From: Rhodococcus rhodnii NBRC 100604
GTDB lineage: Bacteria; Actinomycetota; Actinomycetes; Mycobacteriales; Mycobacteriaceae
NCBI RefSeq assembly: GCF_001894925.1
Contig: NZ_BCXD01000001.1
Coordinates: forward strand, 310,001-374,000
Reading direction: 5' to 3'
DNA: 64,000 nt
The position numbers and the translations under genes were made by a program. The notes below the pieces were generated by a model, which was not told the origin of the DNA, did not search any database, and worked only from the letters and a program-made list of their open reading frames with translations. Within the stretch, counting starts at the first letter, position 1, and each line of letters begins with the position of its first letter. Positions 27,097 through 62,010 of this stretch are shown here, in pieces.

Positions 27097-28490
27097 ATCC
27101 GTAGACCCCCTACTCGTCCGGTCTCACCTCGTCGGGCACGCCACACCGCACGGGGCCGGCGGGCGCGCGTGCGTTCGGGATGCTCGCGGCGATGGTCCGC
27201 GCTCGCCGCGCGATACGCCGCCAGCAGCCCGTCGGCGGTCCGTGCCCACGAGAACTGCTCGGCGTGCTCGGCCGCGGCCGCGGCCATCCTGATCCGTTCG
27301 CCGGGAGCGTCCATGAGCTTGCCGATCGCCCGCGCCCAGTCGTCGGGCCGATGCGAATCGAGCAGCATCCCGGTCTCGCCGTCACGCACCGCGACGCCGA
27401 GACCGCCGACGTCCGCCGCGACGACCGGCGTTCCGCACGCCTGCGCTTCGACGGCGACGAGCCCGAACGACTCCGAATGACTCGGCACCGCAACGAGATC
27501 CGAGGCACGGTAGACGTCGACGAGACGCTCCGGCGGCTGCGGCGGCAGGAACGTCACGTGCGGTTCGACGCCGAGCGAGCGCGCGAGGTCGATGAGCGAG
27601 TGGGGCCTGTCGAGTCCCGATCCGGACGGGCCGCCGACGACGAGCACCCGCAGCCGCGCGTCGGGGCGCTCGCGCACCATCGCGGCCGCCGCGCGCACCA
27701 GCACGTCGGGCGCCTTGAGCGGCTGGATGCGCCCGACGAAGGTGACGACGAACTCGGTGGGATCGACGCCGAGCGAGGCGCGGGCGACGTCGCGGTCGCC
27801 GGGGCGGTACCGGTCGAGATCGGCGCCGGGCGCGACGACGTCGATGCGATCGGGGCTCGCGCCGTAGAGGCCGACGAGGTGGCGTGCCTCCTCGTCGGTG
27901 TTCGCGACGAGCCGGTCCGCCTCGGCGACGACCTGCTGCTCGCCGACGATGCGCGCCGCCGGTTCGGGGGTGTCGCCCTCGGCGAGCGAGGCGTTCTTGA
28001 CCGCCGCGAGGGTGTGCGCGGTGTGGACCATCGGCACGGTCCAGCGGTCGCGGGCGAGCCAGCCGACCTGGCCGGAGAGCCAGTAGTGCGAGTGGACGAG
28101 GTCGTAGTGCCCCGGTTCGTGGCGCGCTTCCTCGCGCAGCACGCCCGCGACGAACGCGCACAGCTGCGTGGGCAGGTCACGCTTGTCGAGCCCCTCGAAC
28201 GGGCCCGCTACGACGTTGCGGACGGTCACGCCCGGCGCTGCCTCGACCGCGGGAAGGTCGGACGACGACGTCGCGCGCGTGAAGATCTCGACCTCGACGC
28301 CGCGCTGCGCGAGCTGTTTCGCGGTCTGCAGGACGTAGACGTTCATGCCGCCCGCGTCGCCGGTTCCCGGCTGCGCGAGCGGTGACGTGTGGACCGACAC
28401 GAGCGCGACGCGACGAGGGTCCCGGCCGGGCGCCGGGTGCGGCGCGTCGAAGTCGGGTCCGTCGGTGCGCAACGGTTCGCGAGGTCTCAC
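27093..28490 (-). CDS. mshA: D-inositol-3-phosphate glycosyltransferase (mycothiol synthesis)
   Basis: 465 residues. It transfers GlcNAc from UDP-GlcNAc to inositol-3-phosphate, the first step of mycothiol synthesis. GT-B/GT4 landmarks: [62 protein letters not shown] and the E-x7-E region [23 protein letters not shown] 28490 is chosen for family length; its GGAGGGG is very close to the codon, so the exact start is uncertain. The C-terminal tail is Arg-rich. Confidence 0.95.
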
Positions 28491-44642: not shown

Positions 44643-44948
44643 TCACCAGCGAGGACCGCGCTGAACCTCGTCGACACGCGGCCGGACGTCGACGAGATAG
44701 ACGCAGACCGCGACGATCGCGACGATGCCGAACAGGCCGATGACCGACGGCCAGACGAGGAGAAAGACGGTGGCCGCGGCGAGAATGCCGACCCACACCG
44801 GCTTGGTGAGCTTGTCGACGGCAGTGAACGCATCCTTGCGCTGACGGATCACATGGACGAGCGCGAACACCGCGCCCGCGAGTGCCACGAGGCGGATGGC
44901 CAGCAGGATGATGGAGATCAAGCCGTCGACGTGAATCACGGGCGCCAT
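44643..44948 (-). CDS. DUF2516 membrane protein (Rv0476-like)
   Basis: 101 residues with three hydrophobic segments (about 8-30, 46-64 and 66-87). A Lys/Arg-rich loop, HVIRQRKDAFTAVDKLTKP, separates the first two. It lies downstream of hbhA on the same strand, as in M. tuberculosis, but a strong palindromic terminator separates them. Function unknown. Confidence 0.87.
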   Translation of the reverse strand: MAPVIHVDGLISIILLAIRLVALAGAVFALVHVIRQRKDAFTAVDKLTKPVWVGILAAATVFLLVWPSVIGLFGIVAIVAVCVYLVDVRPRVDEVQRGPRW

Positions 44949-44964
44949 TCTACGGATGAAGACG

Positions 44965-44998
44965 CCGACCGCCCCGTCGACGTCGACGGGGCGGTCGG
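44965..44998 (-). terminator. 34-bp perfect palindrome terminating hbhA
   Basis: Two 17-nt arms with no unpaired centre (left arm CCGACCGCCCCGTCGAC), located 32 bp past the hbhA stop and 17 bp before the DUF2516 ATG. It would form a very stable hairpin in either strand. Confidence 0.75.
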
Positions 44999-45029
44999 TG
45001 AAGGTGGTGCGGCCGTGTCGCCCGGGACG

Positions 45030-45800
45030 TCAGGCCTTCTTGGTCGGAGCCTTCTTCGCGGGCGCCTTCTTCGCGGGCGCCTTCTTCGCGGGCGTGGTGC
45101 GCGCCGTGCTCGCGGCCGGCGCCTTCTTCGCGACACGCGACTTCGCGGTGGTCGCGTTCGACGCGACCTCCTTCGACGCCTCCTCGGCCTGATCACCGAG
45201 ATCGAGCACCTTCAGGGCCGCCTCGTCGCCGGCGTCCGAGATCGTGTCGCCGACGCCCTCGGCGGTGTCCGAGATGCGCCCGGCGGCACGGCCCGCGAAC
45301 TTCGCGGCCTGCTCACCGATCGCACGAGTCTGCCGCGCGACGCTGCCCAGCGCCTCCTCGGTCAGCTCGACGGCGTCGCCGAAGGCCGACTCCGCGCGCT
45401 CGATGCCGTCCTCGACCGCGGGCTGCTTGCGCAGGCGCTCGACTGCACCCTCGCCACGCTCGGCGAGCGAGGCGTAGATGTCCGACGCGACCTTGAGGTA
45501 CGCCTCGGCAGCCTTGCGCAGCTCCTCGGCGCTGAACCGCTCACGCAGCTCGGCGAGCTCCTCGGGCAGCTCCGACGGGAGCGCCGCGAGGCGTTCGCGC
45601 AGGCTCTCGACGTTCTCGGTCACTTCGCTCTGGATGTCGGTGAACCGCGCACGCGCCTCGTCGACACGGCCCTCGACGTCGCCCTGAGCTTCCTCGGCGC
45701 GCGTACGCACCTGCGCCACGACATCGGCCACGGCAGCCAGGACCGCGTCGCCGGCACCCACAGCGGCGTAGATCGGGGTCTTCACGTTGTACTCGGTCAT
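45030..45800 (-). CDS. hbhA: Heparin-binding haemagglutinin-like protein
   Basis: 256 residues. A long helical/coiled-coil region (about 20-190) is followed by a Lys/Ala/Pro tail of KAPAKK repeats (about 225-256), the heparin-binding signature of HbhA. ATG follows AAGGAG and overlaps the XRE regulator stop (ATGA, 45797-45800). In mycobacteria HbhA is a methylated surface adhesin; in Rhodococcus relatives it is linked to lipid droplets or membranes. It ends at a strong hairpin. Confidence 0.93.
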   Translation of the reverse strand: MTEYNVKTPIYAAVGAGDAVLAAVADVVAQVRTRAEEAQGDVEGRVDEARARFTDIQSEVTENVESLRERLAALPSELPEELAELRERFSAEELRKAAEAYLKVASDIYASLAERGEGAVERLRKQPAVEDGIERAESAFGDAVELTEEALGSVARQTRAIGEQAAKFAGRAAGRISDTAEGVGDTISDAGDEAALKVLDLGDQAEEASKEVASNATTAKSRVAKKAPAASTARTTPAKKAPAKKAPAKKAPTKKA

Positions 45801-46372
45801 CGGTTCTCCTTCGTCCTTTCGGAGCTGAGCACCCGGTCGGCGTCGGATCCGGCGCCGGGCTTCGGTTCGGCGGCATCGGGAGCGTCGTCGGACACGATGC
45901 CGGTGGTACTGGTGGTACCGGTGGTACTGCTCTCGCTGTTCGACTCGTCCGCAGTGTCGTTCTCACGCCGGAAGGAGTCGTAGATCTCGAGCAGCGCCTG
46001 CTTCTGACGATCGGTGAGGTCACCGTCCGCGAGGACGGCGTCGCGCACCGGGCTGAGCTCACGCTGTTCGAGATAGCCCGCCTGGATGTACAGGACCTCG
46101 GACGAGACGCGAAGACCTTTCGCGATCTGCCCGAGCACCTCGGCCGAGGGCTTGCGCAATCCGCGCTCGATCTGGCTGAGATACGGATTGCTCACGCCCG
46201 CCAGTTGCGCGAGTTGACGCAAGGAGACCTGTGCGGATTCTCGCTGGGAACGGATGAAACCACCGATGTCGTGGGCGGCGGTGCTCACGACCCGCGCCGC
46301 GCGATCTGCGGGAGCCTCACGCGTTGCGTCGCCTTCGTCGGTGCCGTTCGCACCGTCCGGTTCGCGGTTCAC
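45797..46372 (-). CDS. XRE-family regulator upstream of hbhA (Rv0474-like)
   Basis: 191 residues. The helix-turn-helix (about 35-95) contains SLRQLAQLAGVSNPYLSQIE and LRKPSAEVLGQIAKGLRVSS. The Ser/Thr/Asp-rich C-terminus is disordered. GTG 46372 is chosen because GGAGGAA precedes it and the promoter -10 (46401-46406) overlaps the only upstream start. The gene is co-translated with hbhA and is likely to regulate it and itself through the TTGCTAGC-like repeats upstream. Confidence 0.9.
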   Translation of the reverse strand: MNREPDGANGTDEGDATREAPADRAARVVSTAAHDIGGFIRSQRESAQVSLRQLAQLAGVSNPYLSQIERGLRKPSAEVLGQIAKGLRVSSEVLYIQAGYLEQRELSPVRDAVLADGDLTDRQKQALLEIYDSFRRENDTADESNSESSTTGTTSTTGIVSDDAPDAAEPKPGAGSDADRVLSSERTKENR

Positions 46373-46400
46373 GGTTTCCTCCGTCGGTCGGACGAGAACC

Positions 46401-46445
46401 ACGATAACGGCGAGTGCTAACTATTGCAAGCATTTTGCTAGCAGT
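46401..46445 (-). promoter_or_regulatory. XRE-hbhA promoter with TTGC repeats
   Basis: On the minus strand TTGCAA (46424-46429) and TATCGT (46401-46406) are separated by 17 bp, a good SigA-type promoter. GCTAAC (46416-46421) and TTGCTAGC (46435-46442) flank the -35 in an imperfect inverted arrangement and are probable operator half-sites for the XRE protein or RamB. Confidence 0.6.
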
Positions 46446-46472
46446 GGGCTTGCACTGCAGGTCGGCAGGGCG

Positions 46473-47756
46473 TCAGTGGACGACGCCGAACATCATCGCC
46501 GAGACCGTGTAGATCGTCAGACCCGCGAGCGCGCCGACGACCGTGCCGTTGATCCGGATGAACTGCAGATCGCGGCCGACCTGGATCTCGATCTTGCGGC
46601 TCGCCTCGGCGGCGTCCCAGCGCTCGACGGTGTCGCTGATGATCGTCGTGATCTCGTCGGTGTAGTTCTCGCTGACGTAGCGGGTGCCCTTCTCGAGCCA
46701 CGCGTCGACCTTGCCGCGCAGGGCGTCGTCGTCGCGCAGCCGTGCGCCGAGCAGTTCGACGTTCTCGGCGACCTTGCGCCGCAACGTGCTGGTCGGATCG
46801 TCGACCGACTCCATGATGAGGCGCTTCGCGACGCGCCACGCAGCCTCGGCGAGCCCGGTGACCTCCTTGCGGCCCATGATCTCGGTCTTGATCTTCTCGG
46901 CCTTCGCGATGGTCGCGGGATCGTTCTGCAGATCCTGCGCGAAGTCCACCAGGAACCGGTTCGCCGCCTGCCGCACCTCGTGATCGGGGTTGGACCGGAC
47001 CTTCCACGTGAAGTCCACGAGTTCCTTGTGGATTCGCTCGCCGAGCAGCAGATCCACGAACTTCGGCGACCACGACGGCGAGTCCCTGCTGATGACACGG
47101 TCGATCGTGTCCTGGCTGCCGAGCGCCCACTCGTGCGCGCGCTCGGCGAGCAGATCGAGCACGGGCAGCTGACGATTCTCGCGCAGCAACTCCTCGAGGA
47201 GCTTGCCGAGCGGCGGACCCCATTCCGGCTCGGCCAGCCGGTGGACGATGGTCTGATCGATGATCGCCTGGACGTCCTCGTCGTCGATCACCTCGACGAC
47301 GCCGCGCAGCACGACGGCCGTCTCGGCGGCGACGCGCTCGGCGTTGCGGGGCTGCGCCAGCCACGTCGCGAGCCGCAGCGGGACCTGCGCCCCCGCGACC
47401 TTGTTCACGACGACGTCGGCCGACAGGAAGTTGGAGCCGACGAAGCTCGACAGCGCTTGGCCGAGCTGGTCCTTCTTGCGCTTGATGATCGCCGTGTGCG
47501 GGATCGGCAGGCCGAGCGGATGCTTGAACAGGGCAGTCACGGCGAACCAGTCCGCGAGCGCACCCACCATGCCGGCCTCCGACGCCGCACGGACGTAGCC
47601 GACCCACGGGCCTGCGCCCTGGGTCTCCTGCCAGCGGCAATAGAGGTAGATCACCGTCGCGAGCACGAGGAAGCCCGTCGCGACCACCTTCATGCGGCGC
47701 AGTTCGCGTCGCTTCACGGTGTCGTCGAAGGCGCCGAGCCCGAGTTCCGTCGTCAC
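46473..47756 (-). CDS. DUF445 membrane protein
   Basis: 427 residues, GTG start. One N-terminal helix (about 22-42) and one C-terminal helix (about 400-425) bracket a long helical region. Conserved motifs are ASEAGMVGALADWFAVTALF, HPLGLPIPHTAIIKRKKDQL and QFIRINGTVVGALAGL. This is the DUF445 (YjiN-like) family of unknown function. The gene is divergent from the TetR regulator at 47893. Confidence 0.92.
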   Translation of the reverse strand: MTTELGLGAFDDTVKRRELRRMKVVATGFLVLATVIYLYCRWQETQGAGPWVGYVRAASEAGMVGALADWFAVTALFKHPLGLPIPHTAIIKRKKDQLGQALSSFVGSNFLSADVVVNKVAGAQVPLRLATWLAQPRNAERVAAETAVVLRGVVEVIDDEDVQAIIDQTIVHRLAEPEWGPPLGKLLEELLRENRQLPVLDLLAERAHEWALGSQDTIDRVISRDSPSWSPKFVDLLLGERIHKELVDFTWKVRSNPDHEVRQAANRFLVDFAQDLQNDPATIAKAEKIKTEIMGRKEVTGLAEAAWRVAKRLIMESVDDPTSTLRRKVAENVELLGARLRDDDALRGKVDAWLEKGTRYVSENYTDEITTIISDTVERWDAAEASRKIEIQVGRDLQFIRINGTVVGALAGLTIYTVSAMMFGVVH

Positions 47757-47892
47757 CGGACCATTGTGCCCACGCGGGCCCGCGGGCCGGGACGAGGCGC
47801 GGCGGCGAACCATTGCTTCGGATTAAGCTCTACGAGAGCAGTGCGTGCGCCGACCGGCGTCCGGCAGCCGAACGAACGAAAGCGAGGTGCCC

Positions 47893-48648
47893 GTGTCCTC
47901 GGACGGAGCCACGGACGAGACCACGAGCGAGCCCTCGACGAACGGCGACACGCCACCTCCCGCGAAGCCCGACGCTCCGGCGAAGTCGGACGGCCGCAAG
48001 CGGCGGTGGCGCGAGCACAAGATCGCGCGCCGGGAAGAGCTCGTCGACGGCACGATCAGCGCGATCCGGCTGCACGGCCGCGACATCGGGATGGACGAGA
48101 TCGCGTCGGAGATCGGCGTGTCCAAGACGGTCCTGTATCGATACTTCTCGGACAAGAGCGATCTCATGAACGCGACGATGATGCGGTACGTCCAGACGAC
48201 GCTCGCGCCGCGCGTGTACGCCGCCGTCTCGAGCGACATGAGCGAGTTCGAGCTCACCGAGGCGACGATCAAGGCGTACGTCGAGACGGTCGCGTCCGAT
48301 CCCGAGATCTATCTGTACGTGATGTCCAACGGGCAGGGCGCGGACACGAGCGTCGTCGCGGATTCGGAGCGGATGATCGCGGAGGTCCTCGCGTCGGTTC
48401 TCGGCGAGAAGCTGCGTGCGCTCGACATGGATTCGGGCGGTTCGGTGCCGTGGGCGTACGGCGTCGTGGGCTCGGTCCAGCTGGCGACGCACTGGTGGAT
48501 CTCCAACCGCTCGATGTCGACCGAGGATCTGATCGCCTATCTCACGATGATGCTGTGGGGTGGGATCTCGGGAATCGCCGAGATGAAGGGCTCCCCCACG
48601 AGGTTCCGTGCGGCCGACCACTCGTTCCCGACGGGCCCGGAGACGTGA
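47893..48648 (+). CDS. TetR family regulator (Rv0472c-like)
   Basis: 251 residues, GTG start with GAGG upstream. A disordered 40-residue lead precedes the TetR helix-turn-helix (about 48-95): REELVDGTISAIRLHG, MDEIASEIGVSKTVLYRYF. The ligand domain lacks a recognisable specificity signature. A perfect palindrome (48658-48674) starts 9 bp after its stop in the promoter of the next gene and is a candidate operator. GCTCT-ACG-AGAGC (47827-47839) in front of the gene may be another. Confidence 0.88.
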   Translation: MSSDGATDETTSEPSTNGDTPPPAKPDAPAKSDGRKRRWREHKIARREELVDGTISAIRLHGRDIGMDEIASEIGVSKTVLYRYFSDKSDLMNATMMRYVQTTLAPRVYAAVSSDMSEFELTEATIKAYVETVASDPEIYLYVMSNGQGADTSVVADSERMIAEVLASVLGEKLRALDMDSGGSVPWAYGVVGSVQLATHWWISNRSMSTEDLIAYLTMMLWGGISGIAEMKGSPTRFRAADHSFPTGPET

Positions 48649-50015: not shown

Positions 50016-51245
50016 ATGCGCCCTGCGCTCGCCGACTCGAGACCGCTCTCGATCGCCATGGTGTCCCAGCAGGCGAACCCGCTGCGGCCCGTCCCCGAAT
50101 CCGCGCATCAGAGCGCGCACGTCGCGGCATTGTCCGAATCGCTCGCCCGCAGCGGACACCACGTGATCGTGTACACCCGGCGTACCGATCCCGACGTGCC
50201 GGAGCGTGAACGAGCACCCGAGGGATACACCGTCGTCCACGTCCCGGTCGGGCCGTTCGAACTCCTCCCCGACGAGCGGACACTGCCGCTGATGGGCGAG
50301 TTCGGCGGGTTCCTCGAAGGCGAGTGGGATCAGGTGCGACCGGACATCGTCCACGCGCACTTCTGGATGTCGGGCATCGCGACGCAACTCGCGACCAAGA
50401 TGCTGGGCATCCCGGTCGTACAGACCTTCCACACCCTCGGGGCCGTCGAGGCGCGGTCGACCGAGCGGACCTCGCGCGCACTCAACGACCGCATCCGGCT
50501 CGAGCAGCTCATCGCCCGCGGCTCGACCCGCATCCTCGCGACGTCGGCCGACGAGGTCTTCGAACTCGCCCACATGGGCATCCCGCGCCAGCGGACGACG
50601 ATCGTCCCGCACGGCGTCGACGTCGACCTGTTCTCGCCGCACGGCCCGGCCGCCGAACGCGGCGAACTCCGGCGGATCCTCATGGTCGGCGACGTGGACA
50701 CCGACAACGGTTTCGCGGCGGGGATCGAAGCACTCAAGCGGGTCCCCGACGCCGAACTCACGATCGCGGGCGGCGTCGACGGAGACGCCGCTTCGGCCGC
50801 GAAGAAACTCGCGTCCACCGCGCGCCGGCATCGCGTCGCCGATCGGGTGACGATGCTCGGTAGCGTCGACGACGCCGACCTGCCCGCGCTGCTGCGATCG
50901 GCGGACGTCGTCGTGTGCGCGCCGGAACACACCAGCGACGCCACGCTCGCACTGCGCGCGATGAGTTGCGGGATTCCCGTCGTCGGCACCGCCGTCGGCG
51001 CGCTGCGCGAGGTGGTGTCGGAGGGTGCGACGGGGCGGATCGTGCCCACGGGGTCGGCGCGCCGCCTCGCCGACTCGATCTCGTCGGTCCTCGACGATCC
51101 CGCCGTCGCGAAGTCGTTCGGTGCCGCAGCGCGCGAGCGGGTCGAGCAGCGCTACAGCCGGCTCGCCGTCGCGGAGGAAGCACTGCGCGCCTACTCGCGC
51201 TGTGTATCGGCGCCGCCGCGGACCCGAATGGCTCCCGTGCGGTGA
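50016..51245 (+). CDS. GT4-family glycosyltransferase
   Basis: 409 residues, ATG behind GAAAGG. GT-B fold: N-terminal SIAMVSQQANPL, VHAHFWMSGIATQLA, TFHTLGAVEARSTERTS, C-terminal nucleotide-binding ILMVGDVDTDNGFAAGIEAL and HTSDATLALRAMSCGIPVVG. The canonical E-x7-E is altered (EHTSDATLALRAM). The protein resembles MshA-type enzymes but the acceptor is unknown. Confidence 0.88.
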   Translation: MRPALADSRPLSIAMVSQQANPLRPVPESAHQSAHVAALSESLARSGHHVIVYTRRTDPDVPERERAPEGYTVVHVPVGPFELLPDERTLPLMGEFGGFLEGEWDQVRPDIVHAHFWMSGIATQLATKMLGIPVVQTFHTLGAVEARSTERTSRALNDRIRLEQLIARGSTRILATSADEVFELAHMGIPRQRTTIVPHGVDVDLFSPHGPAAERGELRRILMVGDVDTDNGFAAGIEALKRVPDAELTIAGGVDGDAASAAKKLASTARRHRVADRVTMLGSVDDADLPALLRSADVVVCAPEHTSDATLALRAMSCGIPVVGTAVGALREVVSEGATGRIVPTGSARRLADSISSVLDDPAVAKSFGAAARERVEQRYSRLAVAEEALRAYSRCVSAPPRTRMAPVR

Positions 51246-52724: not shown

Positions 52725-55049
52725 CTAGTCCTCCGAACCGGCCTTCTCCGCCCGGCGACGCAACCGGCGTGCGGCCGCGACGAGATTGCGCAGCGACGGC
52801 TCGAGCTGCCAGTAGTGGCGCGTCTTCAGACCACCGTCCGGATTCGCCCACAGCCGATCGAGCGGCACCGACTCGCTCGCCTTCGTGAGCAGTTCGTCGA
52901 GTTCGTCGATGTCCGGGATCCGGGCCGACCGGCTCTCGTAGACGCCGGGCCCGACGCCGCGCGTGAGCGCACGCTCCTCGATAGCCTGCAGGACCCAGTC
53001 GATCGACCGCGTCGCGACGATCGCGGTGACGTCGGCGTCGAGCCGTTCGATCGCGTCGACGACCGACGTCTTGCCCGAGTACGTGATGTGCGTGTGGATC
53101 TGCGTCTCGGGCTTCGCACCACCTGTCGCGAGCCGGAACGCATCGACCGCCCACTCGAGGTACTCCTGGCGGCCGTCGTCGCGTAGCGGCAGCAACTCGC
53201 GAATGGCGGGCTCGTCGACCTGGATGATCGCGATCCCGGCGGCCTCGAGGTCGGCGATCTCGTCGCGGATCGCGAGGGCGAGCTGATCGGCGGTCTCGTA
53301 GAGCGGCTGGTCCTGACGGACGAACGAGCGCGCCAGCATCGTGACGGGGCCGGTGAGCATCGCCTTGACCGGCTTGTCCGTGAGCGACTGGGCGAACCCG
53401 ATCCACTCGACCGTCATCGGCTTCGGCCGCGCGACGTCGCCGAACAGGATCGGCGGCCGCGTCGCGCGCGAGCCGTACGCCTGCACCCAGCCGTTGTGGG
53501 TGAAGGCGTATCCGTCGAGCAGTTCCGCGAAGTACTGCACCATGTCGTTGCGCTCGTGCTCACCGTGCACGAGGACGTCGAGGCCGATGTCCTCCTGGAG
53601 GCGGATCGTGTCGGCGATCTCCTCCTGGATCCGCTTGTAGTAGTCGGCCCATTCGAGCCGGCCCGCACCGAGTTCGTAGCGGGCCTGCCGGATCGCGTCC
53701 GTCTGCGGGAACGAACCGAGCGTCGTCGCGGGCACGAGCGGCAGGTTCAGCCGTTCCTGCTGGGCGACGCGGCGCTCCTCGTACGGTGCGCGCACGCGAT
53801 GCTCGGGGCGGATCGCGTTGACCCGCGAACGCACCGTGTGCTTGAGCTTGAAGTGCACCGAGGTCGGCTTCTTGCGCCACTTCTCCGACGGCCCCTCGGT
53901 CAGTGCCTTCGCGAGCGCGACGACCTCACCGACCTTCTGCTTCGCGAACGCGAGCCGGTCCGCGACGTCGCCGGGGAGGTCGTATTCGATGAGCACGTCG
54001 TACGGCACGTGCAGCAGCGACGTCGACGTCGAGACGACGAGGTCGGGGACGACGTCCTTCAGCTTGTTCAGGTAGGTCAGTGTGTTGTAGCGGTCGACGC
54101 GCCACACGTTGCGGCCGTCGACGACACCCGCGTAGAGGCGCTTGCGCCGCAGCCCCGGCACCTTCGCGAGTTCGTCCGGGTTGACCTTGCCCGCGACGAG
54201 GTCGAGGCCGAGTGCCTCGACGCCGGTTCCGGCGAGGATCGCGAGGGCGTCGCCGAGCCAGCCGTACTGGCCCGTCACGAGGATGCGCGGACGCAGCGGC
54301 GCCGTCGAGAGCGTGTCGTACGCACGTCGCAGTGCCTCGAGTTCCTCGGGCGCCCGGTCCTCGGTGAAGCACGGCTCGTCGAGCTGCACACACGTCGCAC
54401 CGGCCTTCGCGAGCTGCGCGAAGAGCTTCTCGTATTCCGGCAGCAGGGCGTCGAGCAGGTCGAGCGGAGCGAAGCCGTCGCGCTCGCTCGTGGGGCTCAC
54501 CTTCGCGAGCAGCAGCAGCGACACCGGGCCGAGGAGCACGGGCCGCAGTTCGATGTCGCGGGCCATCGCGCGATGGAACTCGTCGAGCACGTCGTCGGAC
54601 CGCAACGAGAACGTCGTGTTCTCGTCCACCTCGGGCTGGCGGTAGTGGTAGTTCGTCCCGAAGTAACGGACGAGCTCGAGGGGCGGGAAGTCGGGCTTGC
54701 CGCGCGCGAGTGTGAAGTAGAAGTCGAGGTCGTCCATCTCGCCGCGCAACGGCGCGAACCGCGGCGGGACGGCGCCGAAGAGGAGCGCGTTGTCGAGGAC
54801 GTGATCGTAGAACGAGAACGTGTTGCCGGGCACCTGGGAGAGGCCGGTCGCGGCGAGCTCGCTCCAGGTCTCTTCCTGCAGTTCGCGTCCGACAGCGAGG
54901 AGCTCGGCACGGGTTCCGGTGCCGTGCCAGTACGCCTCGAGTGCACGCTTGAGCTCGCGGCGAGGGCCGATACGCGGGTAGCCCAAGATGCTCGAGCCGA
55001 CGGGAGTGCTCGAACCGACGGGAGTGCTCGAACCGAAGGTGCTGGTCAT
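52725..55049 (-). CDS. MetE-like cobalamin-independent methionine synthase lacking three zinc ligands
   Basis: 774 residues, full MetE length. N-terminal GYPRIGPRRELKRALEAYW, then TTLGSFPQTDAIRQARYELG, VHGEHERNDMVQYFAELLDG, RPKPMTVEW and IIQVDEPAIRELLPLR show the folate and homocysteine regions. But the zinc site is changed: the canonical HTHMCYSEF is HTHITYSGK (Cys to Thr656), the SIETSRS Glu is Val678, and NPDCGLKTR is NPDGGLKTR (Gly739). Only His654 remains, at a constant offset of 13 from the E. coli ligands H641, C643, E665 and C726. The N-terminus carries tandem GSSTPV repeats. It may methylate by another route or have a new function. Confidence 0.88.
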   Translation of the reverse strand: MTSTFGSSTPVGSSTPVGSSILGYPRIGPRRELKRALEAYWHGTGTRAELLAVGRELQEETWSELAATGLSQVPGNTFSFYDHVLDNALLFGAVPPRFAPLRGEMDDLDFYFTLARGKPDFPPLELVRYFGTNYHYRQPEVDENTTFSLRSDDVLDEFHRAMARDIELRPVLLGPVSLLLLAKVSPTSERDGFAPLDLLDALLPEYEKLFAQLAKAGATCVQLDEPCFTEDRAPEELEALRRAYDTLSTAPLRPRILVTGQYGWLGDALAILAGTGVEALGLDLVAGKVNPDELAKVPGLRRKRLYAGVVDGRNVWRVDRYNTLTYLNKLKDVVPDLVVSTSTSLLHVPYDVLIEYDLPGDVADRLAFAKQKVGEVVALAKALTEGPSEKWRKKPTSVHFKLKHTVRSRVNAIRPEHRVRAPYEERRVAQQERLNLPLVPATTLGSFPQTDAIRQARYELGAGRLEWADYYKRIQEEIADTIRLQEDIGLDVLVHGEHERNDMVQYFAELLDGYAFTHNGWVQAYGSRATRPPILFGDVARPKPMTVEWIGFAQSLTDKPVKAMLTGPVTMLARSFVRQDQPLYETADQLALAIRDEIADLEAAGIAIIQVDEPAIRELLPLRDDGRQEYLEWAVDAFRLATGGAKPETQIHTHITYSGKTSVVDAIERLDADVTAIVATRSIDWVLQAIEERALTRGVGPGVYESRSARIPDIDELDELLTKASESVPLDRLWANPDGGLKTRHYWQLEPSLRNLVAAARRLRRRAEKAGSED
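54990..55040. repeat. 18-bp tandem repeats at the metE-like 5' end
   Basis: Two full copies of GCTCGARCCGACGGGAGT (54990-55007, 55008-55025) and a partial third to 55040. They encode the N-terminal GSSTPVGSSTPVGSS of the MetE-like protein. Confidence 0.85.
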
Positions 55050-55117
55050 GGCTGTCGACCTTTCGGGGAGGACGGACCGATCATCACCCCTTGTCTCATC
55101 ACCCCTTGCCCCTGTGC

Positions 55118-55164
55118 CGCAATGTCACATCGTGCGCATCGAGCGCAAACGATGTGACATTGCG
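55118..55164. repeat. Large inverted repeat upstream of the metE-like gene
   Basis: Perfect 16-bp arms (55118-55133 CGCAATGTCACATCGT and 55149-55164) around a 15-nt loop. It lies between fadB2's stop and the metE-like start, both leftward, so it may terminate fadB2 or serve as an operator. Not a cobalamin riboswitch by appearance. Confidence 0.7.
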
Positions 55165-55204
55165 CCGCACGGGGAGGGGGGCGGGGTGCCTACGGGCAGG
55201 CGGC

Positions 55205-56101
55205 TCAGCTGGCTTTCTTGGCGGTACGGCCGTTCTCGCCGTACTCGTAGAAGCCCGCACCGGACTTCTTGCCCACGAGTCCTGCCTCGACCATGCGCAG
55301 CAGCAGCGGCGGCGCCGAGTACAGCGGTTCCTTGAACTCCTCGTACATCGAGTCGGCGATCGACTTCACGGTGTCGAGGCCGACGAGGTCGGTCAGTGCG
55401 AGCGGGCCCATCGGATGCGCGAGGCCGAGCACGGTCGCCTTGTCGATGTCCTCCTTCGTCGCGAAGCCGGACTCGACCATGCGGATCGCCGAGAGCAGGT
55501 ACGGCACGAGCAGTGCGTTGACGACGAATCCGGAGCGGTCGGCGGAGTGCACCACCTGCTTGCCGAGGACGTCGCTCGCGAACAGCTCGGCGCGCTCGCT
55601 CACGGCCTTGCTCGTCTTGAGGGTCGTGACGAGTTCGACGAGCGGGAGCACGGGCACCGGGTTGAAGAAGTGCATGCCGATGACGCGCTCGGGCTTGGTG
55701 GTCGCGATGCCGAGCTTCATGATCGGGATCGACGACGTGTTGGAGGCGAGCACGGCGTTCGGGTCGGTGACGACGCCGTCGAGCTCGCTGAAGATGTCGC
55801 TCTTGACCTTCTCGTCCTCGACGACGGCCTCGACGACGAGCTGACGGTCGGCGAAGTCGCCGAGGTCGGTGGTGAAGCGGAGCCGCCAGGCCGCCTGCTC
55901 ACGCTCGCGCTCGGTGATCTTTCCGCTGCTGACGCCGCGATCGAGCGAGCGGAGGATGCGCGAGCGTCCTGCCGCGGAGAGTTCGCGCGTGCGCTCGTAC
56001 ACAAGAACGTCGACGTGTGCGCGTGCGCAGACCTCGGCGATACCGGCGCCCATCTGACCTGCGCCGATCACGCCGACGCGCTGAATCTTCTCGCTGGTCA
56101 C
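55205..56101 (-). CDS. fadB2: 3-hydroxybutyryl-CoA dehydrogenase (FadB2-like)
   Basis: 298 residues, GTG start behind GAGGAGGAG. NAD-dependent oxidation of 3-hydroxyacyl-CoA in beta-oxidation. Rossmann VGVIGAGQMGAGIAEVCA at about 9-26, NTSSI, catalytic His in MHFFNPVPVLPLVE, and C-terminal dimer domain HPMGPLALTDLVGLD. Next to aceA as in M. tuberculosis (Rv0468), joining fatty-acid degradation with the glyoxylate shunt. Confidence 0.94.
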   Translation of the reverse strand: MTSEKIQRVGVIGAGQMGAGIAEVCARAHVDVLVYERTRELSAAGRSRILRSLDRGVSSGKITEREREQAAWRLRFTTDLGDFADRQLVVEAVVEDEKVKSDIFSELDGVVTDPNAVLASNTSSIPIMKLGIATTKPERVIGMHFFNPVPVLPLVELVTTLKTSKAVSERAELFASDVLGKQVVHSADRSGFVVNALLVPYLLSAIRMVESGFATKEDIDKATVLGLAHPMGPLALTDLVGLDTVKSIADSMYEEFKEPLYSAPPLLLRMVEAGLVGKKSGAGFYEYGENGRTAKKAS

Positions 56102-56267: not shown

Positions 56268-57557
56268 CTAGTGGAACTGGCCTTCCTCGGTGGAGCCCTT
56301 CAGTGCAGCCGTCGAGGTGTTGGGGTCGACGGTGGTGGCGATGCTGTCGAAGTAGCCGGCGCCGACCTCACGCTGGTGCTTGACGGCGGTGAAGCCACGC
56401 TCTGCGGCAGCCTTGAACTCGCGCTCCTGCAGGTCGACGAAGGCCGTCATGCCCTCGCGGGCGTAGCCGTGCGCCAGGTCGAACATGCCGTAGTTGAGCG
56501 AATGGAAGCCGGCCAGCGTGATGAACTGGAACTTGAAGCCCATCGCGCCGAGCTCCTTCTGGAACTTCGCGATCGTCGCGTCGTCCAGGTGCGCCTTCCA
56601 GTTGAAGGACGGGGAGCAGTTGTACGCGAGCAGCTGGTCGGGGAACTCGCTGCGCACGGACTCGGCGAACTTCTTGGCGACCTCGAGGTCCGGAACGCCG
56701 GTCTCCATCCAGATGAGATCGGAGTACGGGGCGTAGGCCTTCGCACGGGCGATGCAGGGCTCGATGCCGTTCTTGACGCCGTAGAAGCCCTCGGCCGTAC
56801 GGGTGCCGTCGAGGAACTCGCGGTCACGCTCGTCGACGTCCGACGTGATGAGGGTTGCGGCCTCGGCGTCGGTACGGGCGATGACGACGGTGGGGACGTC
56901 GGCGACGTCGGCCGCGAGGCGAGCCGAGGTCAGGGTGCGGATGTGCTGCTGGGTGGGGATGAGCACCTTGCCACCGAGGTGGCCGCACTTCTTCTCCGAC
57001 GCGAGCTGGTCCTCCCAGTGCGAGCCGGCGACGCCGGCCGCGATCATGGCCTTCTGCAGCTCGTAGACGTTGAGGGCGCCGCCGAAGCCGGCCTCACCGT
57101 CGGCGACGATCGGGGCGAGCCAGTTGTCGACGGAGGTGTCACCCTCGACCTTGGCGATCTCGTCGGCGCGCAGGAGCGCGTTGTTGATGCGACGGACGAC
57201 CTGCGGCACCGAGTTCGCCGGGTACAGCGACTGGTCCGGGTAGGTGTGGCCCGAGAGGTTCGCGTCACCGGCGACCTGCCAGCCGGAGAGGTAGATGGCC
57301 TTGAGGCCCGCGCGGACCTGCTGGACGGCCTGGTTGCCCGTGAGTGCGCCGAGCGAGTTGATGTAGTCCTCGTTGTTGACGAGGTCCCACAGGATCTCGG
57401 AGCCGCGACGCGCGAGCGTGGCCTCTTCGACGACGGTGCCCTGGAGCTTCACGACCTGATCGGCGGTGTAGTTGCGGGTGATGCCCTTCCAGCGCGGGTT
57501 GGTGTCCCAATCCTGCTGGATCTCGGCTGCGGTCCTCGGTGTGCCGGTGGTCGACAT
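56268..57557 (-). CDS. aceA: Isocitrate lyase
   Basis: 429 residues. Cleaves isocitrate to glyoxylate and succinate in the glyoxylate shunt. The catalytic KKCGHLGGK has Cys191, as in M. tuberculosis Icl1. Mg-binding [19 protein letters not shown] and NCSPSFNW are intact. ATG follows GTGGAG. Length is standard. RamB-like motifs lie upstream; ramB itself is about 3 kb away. Confidence 0.97.
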
Positions 57558-58034
57558 CAAGACTCCACTTCTCGTTGTATATCGGAGCGCCGGGGCGATG
57601 TGAGCAGTACGTCCGTACGACTTCGCATCGTTGCCAGGCTCCGTGTCGGTACTCGTCGAGAATGACACACCGAAAAAGGGCCGTCTAGCAGTTGCTAATG
57701 CCAACCTTCGCTAGCTTTTCGGGCACCGTTGCAAAGATTGCGAAGGTTCTGGCGTCAGTCGCGCCCGAGGTGCCGGGGCCGATATTACCGACGAGTACAT
57801 GTTCACCCTGTTCACGGCCCGATACCGCCGCACGGGCCCCGGCCCCACGGGCATCGCCGCCGATACGCGACCGGACGGCCGAATGCGACGAAACGACCGA
57901 AAGTGATGTCCCTCACGCTACTGTCGGTTCACGAGCGCTCGCGCTGCGTGCCCGGCGGGCCTCGGATACGTTCCGGTCACGGGAGCGGACCCCGCCCGAC
58001 CGGTGGCCGCACGGGAGACGGACGAGGAAACACG
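57558..58034. other. aceA-fmdB divergent intergenic region
   Basis: 477 bp without a gene; open frames crossing it are shadows. It contains the aceA promoter and RamB-like motifs (57684-57741), lower in GC than its surroundings. The fmdB leader with GAGGAAA lies at the right end. Nothing else is recognised. Confidence 0.6.
57684..57741 (-). promoter_or_regulatory. RamB-like operator cluster upstream of aceA
   Basis: TAGCAGTTGCTAA (57686-57698) is an imperfect palindrome of TTAGCA. CGCTAGC (57709-57715) and TTGCAAAGATTGCGAA (57729-57744) follow. CTTTGCAA-type words are bound by RamB in corynebacteria, and GTTGCTAA also occurs in the ramB promoter here. About 130-185 bp before the aceA ATG. 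Confidence 0.5.
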
Positions 58035-60550: not shown

Positions 60551-60591
60551 GTTAACAGCTGGTTGCTAACCCACCGGCACGCTTCTAGCCT
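60551..60591 (+). promoter_or_regulatory. ramB promoter and autoregulatory motif
   Basis: TTGCTA (60563-60568) and TAGCCT (60586-60591) are 17 bp apart; TAGCCT ends 6 bp before ATG 60598, giving a leaderless mRNA. The imperfect inverted repeat GTTAACA-GCTGG-TTGCTAAC (60551-60570) overlaps the -35 and shares GTTGCTAA with the aceA promoter. Confidence 0.6.
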
Positions 60592-60597
60592 GGACAC

Positions 60598-62010
60598 ATG
60601 GCCAAGACGTACGTGGGTGCGCGCCTGCGTCAGCTGCGCGCGGAACGGGGCATGAGCCAGGCTGCGCTGGCGAAGAGCCTCGAGATCTCGGCGAGCTATC
60701 TCAACCAGATCGAGCACGACGTCCGCCCGCTGACGGTGCCGGTGCTGCTGCGCATCAGCGAGGTGTTCGGCGTCGACACGTCGTTCTTCTCGTCGCAGGA
60801 CGAGACGCGGCTCGTGGCGGAGATGCGCGAGCTGGCTCTCGACGAGGAGATCGGCGTCGAGTCGGACACGCAGGAGATCGCGGAGATGGTGGCCGCGCAT
60901 CCACGGATCGCGAAGGCGATGGTCGGGATGTACCGCCGCTACCGCAACACGCGGTCGCAGCTCGCCGCGGCGACCGAGGAGCGGTTCAGCGACGGCAGCG
61001 GCAGCGGCGCGATCACGATGCCGCACGAGGAAGTGCGCGACTACTTCTATCAGCGGCAGAACTACATCCACGAGCTCGACGCCGCGGCCGAGGACCTCAC
61101 CGCGAAGATGCGGTTCCACCGCGGCGACGTCGGCGGCGAGATCGCCAAACGCCTCGAGACGGTGCACGACGTCCAGATCGTGCGGCGCATCGATCTCGGC
61201 GAGAACGTCCTCCACCGCTACGACGCCGCGAACCGCGTCCTCGAGATCTCGCCGCGGCTCTCGCGGGGTCAGCAGATCTTCAAGTTCGCGTCCGAGCTCG
61301 CGTTGCTGGAGTTCGGCGATCTCGTCGACGAGCTCGTGGCGGAGGGGAAGTTCGCGTCCGAGGATTCGGTGAAGCTCGCCCGTCTCGGCCTGGCGAGCTA
61401 CTTCGCGGCGGCGACGGTGCTGCCGTACACGCAGTTCCACGAGGTCGCCGAGGACTTCCGTTACGACATCGAGCGACTGTCGGCGTTCTACGCGGTGAGC
61501 TACGAGACGATCTGTCACCGGCTCTCGACGCTGCAACGCCCGAAGCTGCGCGGTGTGCCGTTCATGTTCGTCCGCGTCGACCGCGCGGGAAACATGTCGA
61601 AGCGGCAGTCCGCCACGGGTTTCCACTTCTCGACGAGCGGCGGCACGTGCCCGCTGTGGAAAGTGTACGAGACGTTCTCGTATCCCGGCAAGATCATGAC
61701 TCAGCTCGCCCAGATGCCCGACGGCAAGCGGTATCTGTGGGTCGCGCGCACCGTCGAGCGACGCGCGCAACGCTACGGCCAGCCGGGCAAGACGTTCGCG
61801 ATCGGCCTCGGATGCGAACTGCGCCATGCGCATCGGCTCGTGTACAGCGACGGCCTGGACCTCGACGACGCGAACCGCGGCACCCCGATCGGTGCGGGCT
61901 GCCGCGTGTGCGAGCGAATCAACTGTCCGCAGCGCGCCTTTCCCCCGTTGGGCAAGGACCTCGACATCAACGAACACCGTAGTTCGGTCTCGCCGTACGT
62001 CATCCGCTGA
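60598..62010 (+). CDS. ramB: Regulator of acetate metabolism RamB
   Basis: 470 residues. N-terminal XRE helix-turn-helix (about 8-62, MSQAALAKSLEISASYLNQIE). A central ImmA/IrrE-like region and the C-terminal short-chain fatty-acyl regulator domain follow, with GFHFSTSGGTCPLW and the cysteine cluster CRVCERINCPQR. RamB (Rv0465c) represses aceA-type genes in corynebacteria and mycobacteria. Leaderless start as noted. Confidence 0.93.
   Translation: MAKTYVGARLRQLRAERGMSQAALAKSLEISASYLNQIEHDVRPLTVPVLLRISEVFGVDTSFFSSQDETRLVAEMRELALDEEIGVESDTQEIAEMVAAHPRIAKAMVGMYRRYRNTRSQLAAATEERFSDGSGSGAITMPHEEVRDYFYQRQNYIHELDAAAEDLTAKMRFHRGDVGGEIAKRLETVHDVQIVRRIDLGENVLHRYDAANRVLEISPRLSRGQQIFKFASELALLEFGDLVDELVAEGKFASEDSVKLARLGLASYFAAATVLPYTQFHEVAEDFRYDIERLSAFYAVSYETICHRLSTLQRPKLRGVPFMFVRVDRAGNMSKRQSATGFHFSTSGGTCPLWKVYETFSYPGKIMTQLAQMPDGKRYLWVARTVERRAQRYGQPGKTFAIGLGCELRHAHRLVYSDGLDLDDANRGTPIGAGCRVCERINCPQRAFPPLGKDLDINEHRSSVSPYVIR

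Follow-up and report, generated by a model that had tools for sequence, protein, structure and literature searches.

A metE-like gene without zinc ligands in Rhodococcus rhodnii and its relatives, a methionine synthase paralogue with a probably changed active centre

Methionine synthase MetE is a textbook zinc enzyme. Proteins of the MetE families TIGR01371 and NF003556 are full-length double barrels with a set of homocysteine-site residues and a DMV loop. Papers are cited here by their PubMed Central (PMC) number. The zinc ligands of Escherichia coli MetE and its residues S433, E484 and D599 are as given in PMC7857596, and in the Thermotoga maritima enzyme Trp539 is the pterin-stacking residue, with His672 of the DIHSP motif as a candidate general acid (PMC539065). 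The core methionine synthases MesA, MesB, MesC and MesD share the catalytic-barrel superfamily and consist of that barrel alone, without the N-terminal domain, and Chloroflexales MesB-like proteins have FSHG, YCDQ or YREQ in place of HCEC, that is, they lack the zinc residues, and another function is proposed for them (PMC7857596). The window studied here, the whole stretch of 64,000 nucleotides from Rhodococcus rhodnii NBRC 100604 (contig NZ_BCXD01000001.1, positions 310,001 to 374,000), contains a metE-like gene without zinc ligands; this gene, its protein and their clade relatives are referred to as Z hereafter. Z resembles MetE in its double barrel (by sequence), its homocysteine-site residues and its DMV loop, and it resembles the MesB-like proteins in belonging to the MetE superfamily without zinc residues. 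However, unlike MetE it lacks the zinc ligands save one histidine, the His of DIHSP, the pterin-stacking Trp and the cobalamin riboswitch, and unlike MesA to MesD it has both domains. A zinc-less full-length MetE was not found in searches of open-access PMC papers. The account preferred here, with a probability of about one half, is that Z is a neofunctionalised MetE paralogue which would have a metal-free, arginine-bearing centre, would no longer catalyze zinc-dependent homocysteine methylation, would keep the amino-acid pocket and would serve in sulfur limitation.

52725..55049, minus strand: Z, metE-like gene without zinc ligands (ATG start, open reading frame of 774 amino acids)

Meth_synt_1 (residues 19-333) and Meth_synt_2 (residues 440-761) of Pfam are both found in the protein, so that together with the open reading frame they bear out the full-length 774-residue MetE homologue that the original prediction, made from the sequence of the window, had described. 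Z and the canonical MetE of its genome share 54% identity. All six Z proteins tested (the window protein and five others) missed the cut-off of TIGR01371 (929.95 bits), whereas Z exceeds that of NF003556; annotation pipelines would therefore name it MetE, and Z is probably misnamed in this way. Residues 1-20 (window 54990-55049) contain STPVGS repeated twice (GSSTPVGSSTPVGSS), which is absent from the other relatives seen.

Residues were mapped by aligning Z with solved MetE structures and with E. coli K-12 MetE as the yardstick, and were tabulated for 89 distinct Z and 74 canonical MetEs. The split between the two groups relied on E. coli positions 643 and 726, independently of positions 665, 694 and 561, and produced no intermediates. 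E. coli H641, C643, E665 and C726 correspond to H654, T656, V678 and G739 of Z at a constant offset of +13, which agrees with the original prediction that the two cysteines and the glutamate are replaced and the histidine is kept. The C/E/C zinc ligands are found in 74/74 canonical MetEs and in 0/89 Z. The codons concerned in the window, with the residues at these positions among the 89 Z, are as follows.

53088..53090, minus strand: H654 (E. coli H641), the only zinc ligand retained; His in 89/89
53082..53084, minus strand: T656 (E. coli zinc ligand C643); Cys 0/89, the six commonest being T 44, G 29, A 7, N 3, P 3 and E 2
53016..53018, minus strand: V678 (E. coli zinc ligand E665); V 86, I 3
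52833..52835, minus strand: G739 (E. coli zinc ligand C726); G 88, F 1
52929..52931, minus strand: R707 (E. coli H694, the DIHSP His, candidate proton donor or general acid); R 87, H 2
53328..53330, minus strand: R574 (E. coli W561, pterin stacking); R 85, F 3, L 1, W 0

The loss in Z extends beyond the zinc site, since Arg also stands in place of the candidate proton-donor His and of the pterin-stacking Trp. E. coli W561 and H694 are equated with T. maritima Trp539 and His672 because of a near-constant offset of 22 and the motif. These two exchanges (W561 to R574, H694 to R707), the minus strand and the change of E. coli K117 to R128 (R in 71/89 and K in 17/89 Z, at the position of T. maritima K104 in the pterin site) had been missed by the original prediction. 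R574, V678, R707 and G739 are each 96-99% conserved across the 89 Z; E705 is new in Z and invariant (89/89), and H745 is new in 84/89. In addition, the S/E/D/M/D residues of the homocysteine site are retained in 89/89 Z (the equivalents of E. coli S433, E484 and D599 each in 89/89), seven positions of the amino-acid pocket are 100% identical, and the basic glutamate-tail groove and the DMV loop are fully retained. E618, the pterin-site Glu (T. maritima E583), is kept in 85/89 Z. R574 is lost in one clade of four proteins, which has also lost the pterin-binding Glu (E605 to T), in one evolutionary event. In the N-terminal barrel, C220 (Z numbering) is Cys in 89/89 Z and Trp in 71/74 canonical MetEs.

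Z is found in 27 of the 28 genomes of the genus at 82-100% identity (82-88% in 26 other genomes), and the exception (G016) is 74% complete. The family search covered 251 genomes, sampled evenly across 31 genera, and Z is present in 140 of these genomes and in 24 of the genera. There the Z group scores 962-1747 bits and is separated by a gap from the rest (at most 780 bits); it was counted by hand, and part of it was read at residue level. The seven family genera without Z include some resembling Mycobacterium and Corynebacterium, this naming being a guess. Across the class (296 genomes) no match beyond the family scored above 826 bits, and 27/27 loci read at residue level were canonical. Named genomes contain at least 575 relatives, and of the best 80 among them 31 are Z (from Rhodococcus, Nocardia, Williamsia, Smaragdicoccus and Hoyosella) and 49 are canonical. 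In a tree of actinobacterial MetEs Z forms one clade with a support of 100/100 and a stem of 0.51 changes per site. Five pairs from the clade have ratios of nonsynonymous to synonymous substitution rates (dN/dS) of 0.017-0.139; Z is under purifying selection. Decay or a sequencing error behind the loss of ligands is rejected on the conservation in the genus and in the 89 Z.

The original prediction had proposed to look for a canonical metE or metH in the same genome, and both are present: the genome of the window encodes a canonical MetE with the motifs HLCYSEF, SIEAARS and NPDCG, and a full MetH. Therefore Z is not needed as a standard methionine synthase. All 28 genomes of the genus have a MetH match, 27 of them above the cut-off, and four of the 28 (G010, G011, G015 and G024) have Z and MetH and no full-length match to canonical MetE. 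Of the 140 Z genomes in the family search, 138 have a MetH match, and canonical MetE is present in the remaining two (G034 and G063). Every Z genome in the family search carries canonical MetE, MetH or both, and the idea that Z is the sole methionine synthase of its host is therefore rejected. A cobalamin riboswitch lies upstream of canonical metE in the genome of the window and in R. qingshengii, but none was found on the two Z loci searched.

The link to sulfur limitation comes from a study of R. qingshengii IGTS8 (PMC8557817), in which a protein named MetE (IGTS8_peg5907) is up 190-273-fold on dibenzothiophene. This strong induction occurs together with that of MetY under sulfur starvation, and by abundance MetE ranks in the top ten of the sulfur proteome. 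The triglutamate of 5-methyltetrahydrofolate (5-methyl-THF) is up in the early log phase (log2 1.9) and down later (log2 -2.66 and -4.07), and the authors propose a MetE knock-out to improve desulfurisation (PMC8557817). By our own re-reading of that paper, peg5907 is probably the Z paralogue because of its cysteine count and its distance to mshA. The Z of R. qingshengii has two Cys and eight Met (start Met included), and the canonical MetE has four Cys and eight Met. MshA is peg5948 in IGTS8, 41 numbers from peg5907 (PMC8557817); in four genomes of the R. qingshengii clade mshA and Z are 35-37 kb apart, whereas canonical metE lies at least 690 kb away or on another contig. In the genome of the window the distance between mshA and Z is 24 kb.

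27201-28412, minus strand: mshA, mycothiol glycosyltransferase (TIGR03449, 685.9 bits)

Another glycosyltransferase resembling MshA, which scores under the cut-off, is encoded at about 50052-51206. Since the MetE induced by dibenzothiophene is probably Z, Z may serve in sulfur limitation, and the later fall of the 5-methyl-THF triglutamate fits, and does not show, its consumption by Z. In a study of selenite (PMC13414329) induction of a metE, which may be either paralogue, is reported as well. Sparing of sulfur alone was rejected as an explanation of Z: it has about two Cys against four in the Rhodococcus canonical MetE, of which two are zinc ligands, and the changes of His and Trp are left unexplained.

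How such a protein might work can be put forward tentatively, at somewhat less than even odds. Z would be a MetE-fold enzyme in which the zinc-thiolate chemistry was swapped for a metal-free, arginine-based centre; under sulfur starvation it would act on a new acceptor or ligand that resembles an amino acid and is perhaps anionic, and it would be present in most non-mycobacterial genera of the family, hidden under the name MetE. As part of the preferred account, at its even odds, an amino acid would be bound in the old homocysteine pocket, two or three arginines would occupy the places of the zinc, the His and the pterin, and the ligand acted on would need no activation by zinc and would probably carry an anionic side chain or tail. 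The methyl donor may still be 5-methyl-THF, with the tail groove kept but the pterin site altered.

Several points weigh against neofunctionalisation in sulfur limitation. The retention of E618 in 85/89, of the tail groove and of H654 would also suit the use of methylfolate and homocysteine; the identification of peg5907 as Z leans on a cysteine count (2 vs 4) and on the distance to mshA in related genomes, and the Met count of Z is eight with the start Met against seven in PMC8557817. Moreover, the neighbouring isocitrate lyase (icl) and fadB2 genes suggest a context of acetate or fatty-acid metabolism, with no obvious fit with a sulfur role. Ordinary decay of a redundant metE copy would be favoured by the canonical metE in the genome and by the loss of Z in four genera or parts of genera, but the intact reading frame, the identity within the genus, the low dN/dS and the new residues shared by 24 genera make it very improbable. 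The view of the original prediction that the mechanism has changed rather than decayed at random is thus supported by replacements in 89/89 relatives, by purifying selection and by a fixed neighbourhood; each of the options it named (another metal, another methyl acceptor or no metal) may hold.

The most serious rival, though an unlikely one, is a pseudoenzyme, a non-catalytic binder of methionine or homocysteine and folate polyglutamate acting as a sensor, a buffer or an enzyme partner. Every known catalytic group for homocysteine methyl transfer has changed, whereas the amino-acid pocket and the tail groove remain, and R574 and E605 were lost together in the clade of four, as if the pair closed the pterin site; the near-invariance of R574, V678, R707 and G739, however, is what would be expected of a new active centre, and top-ten abundance is much for a sensor (PMC8557817). 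It is less probable still that Z has stayed a methionine synthase, zinc-free or differently liganded (for example by H654, H745 and E705) and adapted to sulfur starvation. The induction with MetY, the late depletion of the methyl donor (PMC8557817), the invariant H654 and the new E705 and H745 would all be accounted for. But the change affects five mechanistic positions at once, none of the Z genomes of the family search depends on Z, saving two cysteines does not account for the Trp and His changes, and H745 and E705 are putative ligands picked from the sequence. Under neofunctionalisation, Z would be a natural experiment on a methyltransferase changing its chemistry, with the zinc site, the candidate proton donor and the pterin stacker exchanged and the amino-acid pocket untouched. 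The model of methionine synthesis published for a desulfurising Rhodococcus may depend on Z (PMC8557817), and the knock-out proposed there would then read out the function of Z.

The genes and the spacer on the upstream side of Z are the following.

55050..55204 (155 bp), minus strand: spacer between fadB2 and Z, folding into a long hairpin that lacks a clear T run (-78.9 kcal/mol, z -4.38, 0/200 shuffles as good)
55205..56101, minus strand: fadB2-like 3-hydroxyacyl-CoA dehydrogenase, directly upstream of Z (Pfam 3HCDH_N, 3HCDH)
56268..57704, minus strand: icl open reading frame, isocitrate lyase (Pfam ICL); translation probably starts at an internal ATG near 57557
60589..62007, plus strand: RamB-like regulator, divergent from icl (Pfam HTH, IrrE-like and ScfRs domains)

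The order icl-fadB2-Z on one strand is found in the window, at the single locus fetched from each of 20 other genera (20/20) and in the one Z genome of g9, as labelled here, which makes 22 genera examined, and the RamB-like family is present at 17 of the 20 other loci. At the Z loci of named genomes fadB2 lies upstream in 30/31, and in the remaining one the contig ends there. Horizontal gain of Z in the g9 genome was rejected, because Z sits at its ancestral position, with fadB2 on one side and the TetR/DUF445 genes on the other; inheritance with losses would be the simpler account, although it is not proved. The fadB2 region was also fetched from 13 family genomes without Z, of which 12 retain ramB, icl and fadB2 and the other has only a 55% fadB2. 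From this retention the icl-fadB2 pair is read as older or wider than Z, and Z was probably lost several times. In three of four Mycobacterium-like genomes without Z the next genes read, by their sequence, like mycolic-acid methyltransferases. The corresponding M. tuberculosis genes are umaA and pcaA. A role of Z in lipid inclusions was set aside, as the available part of PMC10699116 lists FadB2 there and no methionine synthase.

The spacer of the window (55050-55204) is a near-perfect long inverted repeat, and other Rhodococcus spacers also read as hairpins of different sequence, ten spacers aligning poorly. The distance from fadB2 to Z is 6-13 bp in 6/45 distinct loci and reaches 565 bp in Nocardia, these lengths depending on guessed start codons. 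With this spread and the strong hairpin of the window, co-transcription with fadB2 and separate control of Z are both possible. The region around Z resembles Rv0465c-Rv0475 of M. tuberculosis. In addition, an XRE regulator, a DUF445 protein and a TetR regulator (44646-48645) recur, together with the RamB-like regulator, in 9-17 of the 20 other loci.
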